Assembly (NCBI RefSeq): GCF_000696185.1 | Contig: NZ_KK853997.1 | Span: 4,010,410 to 4,074,409, forward strand | Length of the DNA: 64,000 nucleotides | Source of the DNA: Kitasatospora cheerisanensis KCTC 2395 | Lineage (GTDB): Bacteria; Actinomycetota; Actinomycetes; Streptomycetales; Streptomycetaceae | Direction of reading: 5' to 3' | In this document: positions 52,631 to 56,034 of the stretch, one piece after another | How the letters are laid out: each line of letters opens with the position of its first letter | Numbering within the stretch: position 1 is the first letter of the stretch | Translations under genes and position numbers: made by a program | Notes under the pieces: model-generated | Told to the model about the DNA's origin: nothing | Databases searched by the model: none | What the model saw: the letters and a program-made list of their open reading frames with translations, nothing else

Positions 52631-54232
52631 TCAGGTCACGTCGCGGGTCATGTCCACGAAGCGCGAGTAGTGGCCCTGGAAGGCGACGGTGATGGTGGCG
52701 GTCGGGCCGTTACGGTGCTTGGCGACGATCAGGTCCGCCTCGCCGGCGCGCGGGGACTCCTTCTCGTAGGCGTCCTCGCGGTGCAGCAGGATGACCATGT
52801 CGGCGTCCTGCTCGATCGAGCCGGACTCGCGCAGGTCGGAGACCATCGGCTTCTTGTCGGTGCGCTGCTCGGGGCCACGGTTCAGCTGGGAGAGCGCGAT
52901 CACCGGGATCTCCAGCTCCTTCGCCAGCAGCTTGAGGTTACGGGACATGTCCGAGACCTCCTGCTGCCGGCTCTCGGCCCGCCGCGAGCCGCCGGCCTGC
53001 ATCAGCTGGAGGTAGTCGATGACCACCAGCCGCAGGTCGTTGCGCTGCTTCAGGCGGCGGCACTTGGCGCGGATCTCCATCATCGACAGGTTCGGCGAGT
53101 CGTCGATGTACAGCGGCGCGGCACTGACCTCGGGCATCCGCCGGGCCACCCGCGTCCAGTCGTCGTCGGTCATGCTGCCGGAGCGCATGTGGTGCAGCGC
53201 CACCCGGGCCTCGGCCGACAGCAGGCGCATGGCGATCTCGTTGCGGCCCATTTCGAGCGAGAAGATCACGCTCGGCAGGTTGTTGTGGATCGAGCAGGCC
53301 CGCGCGAAGTCCAGCGCCAGGGTGGACTTACCCATCGCGGGACGGGCCGCGATGACGATCATCTGGCCGGGGTGCAGGCCGTTGGTGAGGGCGTCGAAGT
53401 CGGCGAAGCCGGTGGGGACGCCGGACATCTGGCCGGAGCGGGAGCCGATCGCCTCGATCTCGTCGAGGGCGCCCTCCATGATGTCGGCCAGCGGCGCGTA
53501 GTCCTCGTTGGTGCGCTGCTCGGTGACCGCGTAGATCTCCGCCTGGGCCTGGTTGACGATGTCGTCGACGTCGCCCTCGGCGGCGTAGCCCATGCCGGCG
53601 ATCCGGGTCCCGGCCTCCACCAGGCGGCGCAGCACGGCCCGCTCGTGGACGATCTCCGCGTAGTACTCGGCGTTGGCCGCGGTGGGAACGGAGTTGACCA
53701 GGGTGTGCAGGTAGGAGGCGCCGCCGACCCGGACCAGCTCGCCGCGCTTGGTGAGCTCGCCGGCCACGGTGATCGGGTCGGCCGGCTCGCCGCGGGCGTA
53801 CAGGTCGAGGATCGCGCCGTGGATCAGCTCGTGGGCGGGCCGGTAGTAGTCGGCCGGCTTGAGCACCTCGACCACGTCGGCGATGGCGTCCTTGGACAGC
53901 AGCATGCCGCCGAGCACGGACTGCTCCGCCGCCAGGTCCTGCGGGGGGACGCGCTCGAAGCCCTCGCCGCCGAAGCCGGTCTCGCCGTCGCGGTCGCGGC
54001 GCTCGCCCTTGGCGGGGAAGCGGTCGCCCTTGCCGCCCTCGCGGCGCTGGAAGCCACCGCCGCCGCCCTGGCCGCCGGAGCCGTTGACGGCGCTGTTCGA
54101 ACGGCGGGTGACGGGAAGGCGGTCGCCGGGGACGTCGGGGAAGGCGTCGAGCGGGAAGGCGTCGTCGGACGGCTGCCAGTCGTCCTCCGGGGGCGGAGGG
54201 GCGTCGTGGTCGTCGTACTGGGGGCCGGTCAC
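52631..54232 (-). CDS. dnaB: replicative DNA helicase
   Basis: A 533-residue hexameric helicase of the replication fork. After a ~100-residue Gly/Arg-rich disordered N-terminus comes the DnaB N-domain (VPPQDLAAEQSVLGGMLLS), then the linker helix and the RecA-like ATPase domain: Walker A ARPAMGKSTLALDFA, Walker B RLVVIDYLQLMQAGG, and the R-finger region REQSGSIEQ-like RESGSIEQDADMV. Many actinobacterial dnaB genes carry inteins at the Walker A or later; none is seen here. The GTG at 54232 opens the frame. The 464 bp upstream contain a DnaA-box cluster. Confidence 0.95.
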   Translation of the reverse strand: MTGPQYDDHDAPPPPEDDWQPSDDAFPLDAFPDVPGDRLPVTRRSNSAVNGSGGQGGGGGFQRREGGKGDRFPAKGERRDRDGETGFGGEGFERVPPQDLAAEQSVLGGMLLSKDAIADVVEVLKPADYYRPAHELIHGAILDLYARGEPADPITVAGELTKRGELVRVGGASYLHTLVNSVPTAANAEYYAEIVHERAVLRRLVEAGTRIAGMGYAAEGDVDDIVNQAQAEIYAVTEQRTNEDYAPLADIMEGALDEIEAIGSRSGQMSGVPTGFADFDALTNGLHPGQMIVIAARPAMGKSTLALDFARACSIHNNLPSVIFSLEMGRNEIAMRLLSAEARVALHHMRSGSMTDDDWTRVARRMPEVSAAPLYIDDSPNLSMMEIRAKCRRLKQRNDLRLVVIDYLQLMQAGGSRRAESRQQEVSDMSRNLKLLAKELEIPVIALSQLNRGPEQRTDKKPMVSDLRESGSIEQDADMVILLHREDAYEKESPRAGEADLIVAKHRNGPTATITVAFQGHYSRFVDMTRDVT

Positions 54233-54409
54233 GCGTGTTCCCCGATCAGCGGTTGGTGCGAGTTGGAGCGGACCTGTCCGATGGTGGCGCACTGTCTTTC
54301 TTACGCCACCGAGCCGACAGTTCCGGCCGTGTGCGGGGCGGTGTCGCGCGGCCACCGGGGTCGGGTCCGCAGCCACGGTACGGGGGGGCGGGCGGTTCCT
54401 CCAAGACGG

Positions 54410-54498
54410 TTATCCACAGGCGGTGTGGATAAGTGTCCGAAGGCTGTGGAGAACCCCCGGAAAGCTGTGCACAACCCTGTGGACACCGCTGTGGATAA
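54410..54498. promoter_or_regulatory. DnaA-box cluster upstream of dnaB
   Basis: Within 90 bp there are three perfect TTATCCACA sites (54410-54418 on plus; 54424-54432 and 54490-54498 on minus) and three near matches (54445-54453 TTCTCCACA, 54466-54474 TTGTGCACA, 54478-54486 GTGTCCACA, minus strand). A further near match TCATCCACA lies at 54674-54682. The Streptomyces consensus is TTGTCCACA and the E. coli one TTATNCACA. The cluster lies between divergent dnaB and the MATE gene, far from the classical dnaA-dnaN oriC. Confidence 0.7.
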
Positions 54499-54683
54499 CC
54501 ACACGATCGCCCTGGTGTCAACTCGCTGACCTGGGATTACCCCTTCCACTGCCTGTGCATGAGAAATTCTTCACACAGCCGCGAGCGAGGTCGTTCAGCT
54601 GTTCGATCGGCCGTTCGACCCACCGTCCATCCACAGGTCGAGTAAGTGCTGAAATGGCCTAGCGCTCATTACCTGTGGATGAG

Positions 54684-54689
54684 TAGGGT
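54684..54689 (+). promoter_or_regulatory. -10 box, leaderless type
   Basis: TAGGGT lies seven bases before the ATG of the MATE gene. Confidence 0.5.
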
Positions 54690-54696
54690 GGACCCC

Positions 54697-56034
54697 ATGC
54701 CCGCCAGATCCGCCACCGCCGCCGAACGCCGCCGCCACGACCGCGAGATCCTCGCGCTGGCCGTCCCGGCGTTCGGCGCCCTGGTCGCCGAACCGCTCTT
54801 CCTGATGGCCGACTCCGCGATCGTCGGCCACCTCGGCACCGCCCAACTGGCCGGCCTGGGCATCGCCTCCGCCGCGCTCACCACCGCCGCCGGCGTGTTC
54901 GTCTTCCTCGCCTACGCCACCACCGCCGCGGTCGCCCGCCGGATCGGCGCCGGCGACCGCCGGGCCGCCGTCCAGCAGGGAATCGACGGGATCTGGCTGG
55001 CCCTGATCCTGTCCGCCGGCATGGTCGCGCTCACCCTGGCCCTCGCCCCGCAGGCCGCCCGACTGCTCGGCGCCTCCGCCACCGCCGCCCCGTACGCGAT
55101 CACCTACCTGCGGATCAGCGCCTTCGGCATACCCGCGATGCTGCTGGTGCTGGCCGCCACCGGCGTGCTCCGCGGCTTCCAGGACACCCGCACCCCGCTG
55201 CTGGTCGCGATCGGCGGGTTCACCGCCAACCTGCTGCTCAACCTGGGCCTGGTGTACGGGGCCGGCCTCGGGGTGGCCGGCTCCGCCTGGGGCACCGTGA
55301 TCGCGCAGAACGCGATGGCCGCCGTGTACGTGGCCGTGGTGGTCCGCGGCGCCCGCCGGGAGGGCGCCGGCCTGCGGCCCGACCTCCCCGGGATCAAGGC
55401 CTCCGCCCGGGCCGGCGGCCCGCTGGTGGTGCGCACCCTGAGCCTGCGCGCCGCCCTGCTGATCGCCACCGCGGTCGCCGCCCACCTGGGCGACGCCGAG
55501 GTGGCGGCCCATCAGATCACCATGACCATCTGGTCGTTCATGGCCTTCGCGCTGGACGCCGTGGCGATCGCCGGGCAGGCCATCATCGGCCGCTACCTGG
55601 GCGCCGGCGACCTCCCGGGCACCCGGGCGGCAACCCGCCGGATGATCGAGTGGGGCATCGGCGCGGGCGTGCTGCTCGGCCTGCTGATGGTGCTGGCCCG
55701 GCCGCTGTACGTCCCGCTGTTCACCACCGACCCGTCGGTCCGGGGCCAGTTGTCCACGGTGCTGCTGCTGGCCGCGCTGACCCAGCCGATCGGCGGCCTG
55801 GTGTTCGTGCTGGACGGCGTGCTGATGGGCGCGGGCGACGGCGGCTACCTGGCCTGGGCGATGCTGGCCACCCTGCTGGTGTTCGCCCCGGCCGCCCTCG
55901 CGGTGCCCGCGCTGGGCCTCGGCCTGGCCGGGCTGTGGTGGGCGATGAACCTGTTCATGCTGACCCGGGCCGCGTTCCTGGCCGGCCGGGTGCGCACCGG
56001 CCGCTGGATGGTGACCGGCGCCGTCCGGGCCTGA
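54697..56034 (+). CDS. MATE family efflux transporter (DinF-like)
   Basis: A 445-residue membrane protein with 12 predicted helices. Typical MATE segments: ALAVPAFGALVAEPLFLMAD, SAIVGHLGTAQLAGLGIASA, GVLRGFQDTRTPLLVAIGG, AHQITMTIWSFMAFALDA, and AGQAIIGRYLGAGD. DinF-like members export drugs or organic cations using Na+ or H+. An ATG at 54679 is in frame but the leaderless TAGGGT spacing favours 54697. It faces away from dnaB. Confidence 0.9.
   Translation: MPARSATAAERRRHDREILALAVPAFGALVAEPLFLMADSAIVGHLGTAQLAGLGIASAALTTAAGVFVFLAYATTAAVARRIGAGDRRAAVQQGIDGIWLALILSAGMVALTLALAPQAARLLGASATAAPYAITYLRISAFGIPAMLLVLAATGVLRGFQDTRTPLLVAIGGFTANLLLNLGLVYGAGLGVAGSAWGTVIAQNAMAAVYVAVVVRGARREGAGLRPDLPGIKASARAGGPLVVRTLSLRAALLIATAVAAHLGDAEVAAHQITMTIWSFMAFALDAVAIAGQAIIGRYLGAGDLPGTRAATRRMIEWGIGAGVLLGLLMVLARPLYVPLFTTDPSVRGQLSTVLLLAALTQPIGGLVFVLDGVLMGAGDGGYLAWAMLATLLVFAPAALAVPALGLGLAGLWWAMNLFMLTRAAFLAGRVRTGRWMVTGAVRA

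Follow-up and report, generated by a model that had tools for sequence, protein, structure and literature searches.

The dnaB-MATE intergenic region

The window (the whole 64 kb stretch of DNA that was analysed, C1:4010410-4074409 of the 8.17 Mb genome) contains dnaB, the gene for the replicative helicase, and a divergently transcribed gene for a MATE family transporter; the two are separated, start to start, by 464 bp. Profile search places rplI, ssb, and rpsF among the upstream neighbours in the window. The closest named DnaB is that of Kitasatospora sp. MBT63, which marks the host as Kitasatospora-like and not as a Streptomyces in the narrow sense. Between the two genes lies an array of three perfect and three one-mismatch DnaA boxes in 89 bp (54410-54498), together with a seventh, outlying box at 54674 and predicted promoter elements (one-mismatch boxes were counted relative to TTATCCACA or TTGTCCACA):

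52631-54232, minus strand: dnaB, replicative helicase (GTG start at 54232; profiles PF00772, PF03796, TIGR00665)
54375-54404, minus strand: predicted dnaB promoter, TTGGAG-N18-TACCGT (consensus TTGGCT-N17/18-TASCGT), from family conservation
54410-54418, plus strand: TTATCCACA, perfect; the inverted box nearest to dnaB, without variation in Streptomycetaceae, separated by 5 nt from the predicted dnaB -35
54424-54432, minus strand: TTATCCACA, perfect; TCRTCCACA in most relatives
54445-54453, minus strand: TTCTCCACA, one-mismatch box; conserved
54466-54474, minus strand: TTGTGCACA, one-mismatch box
54478-54486, minus strand: GTGTCCACA, one-mismatch box; conserved best in the Kitasatospora group
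54490-54498, minus strand: TTATCCACA, perfect, distal array box; TTGTCCACA or TTGTTCACA in most relatives
54674-54682, minus strand: TCATCCACA, outlying box; conserved, inside the predicted MATE promoter
54684-54689, plus strand: predicted MATE -10, TAGGGT, 7 nt before the ATG in a leaderless arrangement
54697-56034, plus strand: MATE family transporter gene, divergent from dnaB (ATG start at 54697; profiles PF01554, TIGR00797)

A preliminary description of this DNA had reported three perfect and several one-mismatch boxes within about 90 bp between dnaB and the MATE gene, and the motif search agrees; the additional near match that it listed at 54674 is TCATCCACA, which has one mismatch and lies on the minus strand. 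It had also set the cluster apart from the classical origin, and indeed the array is 39 kb away from the oriC of the same genome, which has numerous boxes in the dnaA-dnaN interval (about C1:4103276-4103847). (The dnaA gene itself reads in two frames, at about 2380-2470 of L143, with the change falling in the linker region; because dnaA is essential, this is probably an assembly or sequencing error.) In many relatives (e.g. G003, G010, G019, G022, and G106), a long insertion that keeps the reading frame interrupts dnaB, at a point corresponding to about residue 301-309 of the window's DnaB, as expected for a DnaB intein; the window's dnaB is without such an intein-like insertion.

Layout and statistics of the array

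Read along the dnaB strand, the first five boxes of the array point in the same direction, with spacings of 12, 12, 21, and 21 bp, and the last, beside dnaB, is inverted. Matches to TTATCCACA with at most one mismatch number five in the 64 kb window, every one of them within the array stretch; shuffled versions of the whole window yield a mean of 1.05 and a maximum of 3. The exact sequence TTRTCCACA occurs three times in the window, each time as an array box, when 0.14 occurrences are expected, and there are 42 copies in the 8.17 Mb genome. A further candidate, CCATCCACA at 54627, was dropped when the alignment showed no conservation.

Conservation within Streptomycetaceae

The array recurs in named Streptomyces and Kitasatospora loci, where the boxes hold the same distances (counted from the distal box, +45 and +66, with the inverted box at +80), a conserved geometry that comes mostly from one family, whose sequences are not independent. 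The inverted TTATCCACA is present in all 66 family loci examined. In an alignment of 64 distinct Streptomycetaceae sequences (window included), the box columns carry 1.72 bits versus 0.88 for the remaining intergenic region, and when the box mask is shifted circularly, 1 of 456 shifts scores as well as the true position. The inverted box itself has 2.00 bits, a value owed partly to its use as the anchor of the alignment; the anchor requirement lost no locus. The outlying box is exact in 40 of the 66 loci, where its offset from the invariant box is -254 (35 loci), -253 (2), -264 (2), or -263 (1); the two offset classes differ by about one helical turn.

Conservation in relatives was the test by which the preliminary description proposed that its own idea might fall; with the test run, the boxes of the array prove to be kept, and the idea survives. 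Its remark that the boxes have the E. coli-type spelling is correct for this genome. As a general trait it does not hold, the spelling being partly lineage-specific: relatives usually have TTGTCCACA or TTGTTCACA as the distal box and TCRTCCACA at others, and among them only the dnaB-proximal inverted box is always spelled TTATCCACA. By comparative measures, the array can be considered functional.

One other element in the alignment, CAGGTCA on the dnaB strand (54527-54533 in the window), is nearly invariant in the 64 family sequences. It is no DnaA box and is perhaps the site for another regulator.

Promoter-like elements beside the boxes

A generic promoter scan of the intergenic region gave no match, and the promoters were consequently predicted from conservation. 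A TTGGCT-N17/18-TASCGT pair faces dnaB in all 64 family sequences, and in 62 of these it begins exactly 5 nt past the invariant box; the hexamers of the predicted dnaB promoter resemble the consensus weakly. Towards the MATE gene, TTACCTGTGGA followed by a short spacer and TANNNT is found shortly before the MATE start codon in 59 of the 64 sequences, an arrangement that puts the outlying box inside a likely leaderless MATE promoter. A TTGACA at 54512-54517 (minus strand), upstream of the box at 54490 and with a -10 over that box, seemed promising in this genome but was rejected: even as a loose pattern it is present in only 22 of the 64 sequences, and its columns are unconserved.

Conservation across Actinomycetes

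For the class as a whole, the 900 bp that precede the core of dnaB were searched in 90 Actinomycetes genomes from 28 families. Boxes with at most one mismatch number 331, compared with 16.4 expected from dinucleotide shuffles, and perfect boxes number 102, compared with 0.75. At least one box is present in 89 of the 90 genomes and at least two in 84; the spacing of the boxes in other families is not that of Streptomycetaceae. The surroundings of pheA, used as a comparison, hold two weak boxes in total in 19 non-Streptomycetaceae genomes, under a box definition somewhat stricter than that of the dnaB count. With this somewhat stricter definition for pheA, the enrichment appears to be specific to the dnaB locus. 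Two features expected of a DnaA-regulated promoter are found here: the position upstream of dnaB is conserved in relatives, and boxes occur beyond chance at the predicted promoter.

Probable DnaA control of dnaB

The possibility, raised at the outset, that DnaA controls dnaB has good support from the position of the boxes, their conservation throughout the class, a fixed geometry relative to a conserved promoter-like element, and published mycobacterial binding. The sites, their conservation, their fixed spacing, and their fixed distance to the conserved promoter-like element were all computed here. Because the invariant box abuts that element, control of dnaB transcription by a DnaA oligomer on the array is the simplest account. 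Probably, then, DnaA binds cooperatively to 54410-54498, and this array serves as the upstream regulatory region of the predicted dnaB promoter. Since mycobacterial DnaA binds upstream of dnaB too, the likeliest reading is that of a dnaB promoter under DnaA control, inherited from an ancestor.

In the proposed mechanism, a DnaA oligomer would load on the array, with the invariant inverted box as its edge. A gap of 5 bp separates this box from the predicted dnaB -35, and the centre of the box would be at about -46 from the predicted start. DnaA occupancy would then set the level of dnaB transcription and so tie the supply of helicase to the activity of the initiator. The same complex would probably affect the divergent MATE gene as well, by way of the outlying box within the predicted promoter of that gene.

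The closest parallel is found in mycobacteria. Through IDAP-seq with M. tuberculosis DnaA and ChIP-seq in M. smegmatis, five DnaA regions have been described, one of which is upstream of dnaB; the DnaA I282T variant binds this region more weakly, and dnaB is under-expressed (PMC7738170). The mycobacterial site (in M. tuberculosis the Rv0057 region, with a homologue in M. smegmatis) is the same in having DnaA sites directly upstream of dnaB, but binding has been demonstrated there, both in vitro and in vivo, whereas for the Kitasatospora array it is predicted (PMC7738170). Unlike at the mycobacterial site, the geometry of the array and a conserved promoter-like element are resolved here, and the divergent gene encodes a MATE transporter. 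For this organism, we infer DnaA binding, a real dnaB promoter, and the sign of the effect; as to the last, activation would be slightly favoured because of the two effects of the I282T substitution.

Hottes et al. 2005, as cited in PMC8203912, reportedly placed the dnaB of Caulobacter crescentus in the DnaA regulon. Like the array, this dnaB has predicted DnaA boxes upstream, and its transcription responds to DnaA, but C. crescentus belongs to a distant phylum (PMC8203912). DnaA control at dnaB is of a kind already known; new here are the rigid geometry between array and predicted promoter and a connection to mycobacterial sites. The array provides a precise, testable regulatory element that would connect the initiator with the gene of the replicative helicase in streptomycetes, bacteria that make antibiotics, carry linear chromosomes, and have an unusual cell cycle.

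Alternative explanations

The most substantial alternative is that the array is mainly a site for DnaA titration or timing, of the datA or Streptomyces cluster type, and that its place at dnaB is secondary. DnaA would be bound near oriC, and the doubling of the array early in replication would delay re-initiation. Clusters of DnaA boxes near oriC do repress untimely initiation in S. coelicolor and B. subtilis (PMC4585315, PMC5742627), and a titration role has been reported for them (PMC4585315, PMC5742627, PMC10950094). The array, at 39 kb, counts as a near-oriC cluster, and the same genome has further clusters near oriC, by crgA and between pheA and serS. The S. coelicolor clusters resemble the array in being DnaA boxes outside but close to oriC in a streptomycete; they differ in being cited for the repression of untimely initiation. 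(A 2006 report by Smulczyk-Krawczyszyn et al., J Bacteriol 188:6184, is said to describe such clusters near the S. coelicolor oriC.) The E. coli sites datA, DARS1, and DARS2 are also DnaA-box clusters outside oriC, but they change the nucleotide state of DnaA, with the help of IHF or Fis, whereas the array sits at a predicted promoter. A pure titration site need not remain upstream of dnaB across 28 families, nor hold a distance of 5 nt to a promoter-like element, and titration as the main role is accordingly judged unlikely. As an addition to promoter control, with which it is compatible, a titration role may exist.

Other readings are much less probable. That the array mainly serves the divergent MATE gene would fit the conserved box in the spacer of the predicted MATE promoter, but only one of the seven boxes lies in that spacer, the array borders on the side of dnaB, and across families the box enrichment tracks dnaB; this reading is very doubtful. 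Still less credit can be given to an accessory or relic replication origin, which the preliminary description had also entertained. Several DnaA boxes do lie beside a helicase gene, and the GC content of the stretch is lower than that of the DNA around it, but the DnaA-trio pattern, searched for at the array, is absent there and present in the same genome's oriC (as TAGTAGTAG). A relic would not show such strong constraint, an ordinary oriC lies 39 kb away, and the suggestion was given up. A strand-composition switch was also looked for at the array and none was seen, the skew being weak throughout the sequence examined, oriC included. Finally, nothing was found that favours a chance cluster, which is refuted by the shuffle controls and by the cross-family conservation; its likelihood is negligible. 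DnaA control of dnaB remains the preferred reading.

Other DnaA-box clusters and a possible ancestral network

A cluster of three boxes lies just downstream of crgA (L144:2441-2492; G000:C1:4119940-4119991), 16 kb from oriC on the side opposite the dnaB array, and a counterpart is present in 66 of 68 Actinomycetes genomes. Boxes with at most one mismatch number 181 in the 300 bp downstream of crgA and 3 in the 300 bp before its stop codon, a comparison made with that coding stretch and not with shuffles. In many families the layout consists of two boxes 13 bp apart, with an inverted box 10 bp further on. Rv0011c of M. tuberculosis is crgA, and the DnaA site in Rv0010c-Rv0011c is on that side of crgA where the boxes are found. 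M. tuberculosis DnaA binds at Rv0010c-Rv0011c, and the authors could see no counterpart of this site in other species (PMC7738170). These results suggest that the two mycobacterial DnaA-binding sites are ancestral in Actinomycetes, in which case the mycobacterial crgA-side site could be studied in streptomycetes, which are harmless model organisms.

Whether the two belong to one ancestral network of DnaA sites outside oriC, comprising the dnaB promoter and the region downstream of crgA and linking the initiator to helicase supply and to division or DnaA recycling, is a proposition that we hold to be evenly balanced. Both sites coincide with mycobacterial DnaA-binding sites. In such a network, the dnaB site would be the one with a fixed array-to-promoter geometry in Streptomycetaceae, and the crgA site, where many families show the three-box layout, may be an element dedicated to the modulation of DnaA and not a promoter site. 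The crgA-side cluster may even be of more importance than the dnaB array.

A third cluster, between pheA and serS (L145:2345-2693; G000:C1:4233344 onward), was considered as a class-wide element and rejected, since in the sample it is confined to Streptomycetaceae (11 of 11 genomes, and 0 of 19 others examined). Its side of oriC differs between genomes, being that of crgA in this one and that of dnaB in the relative G054. In S. coelicolor, the crgA, dnaB, and pheA-serS regions are, we assume, on cosmids H69, H24, and D78. A 2006 S. coelicolor study reportedly used H69, H24, and D78 as cluster names, and the dnaB cluster may be H24. If this naming is true, the streptomycete clusters are already catalogued, and the class-wide conservation and the mycobacterial match are what is new.

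Three two-box pairs are found far from oriC (L141:2500-2525, L142:2546-2571, and L147:2580-2605); in each pair the two boxes point the same way, at a spacing of 17 bp. By eye, the neighbour of the L141 pair is a ComEA-like gene and that of the L142 pair a septum-site-determining-like gene.
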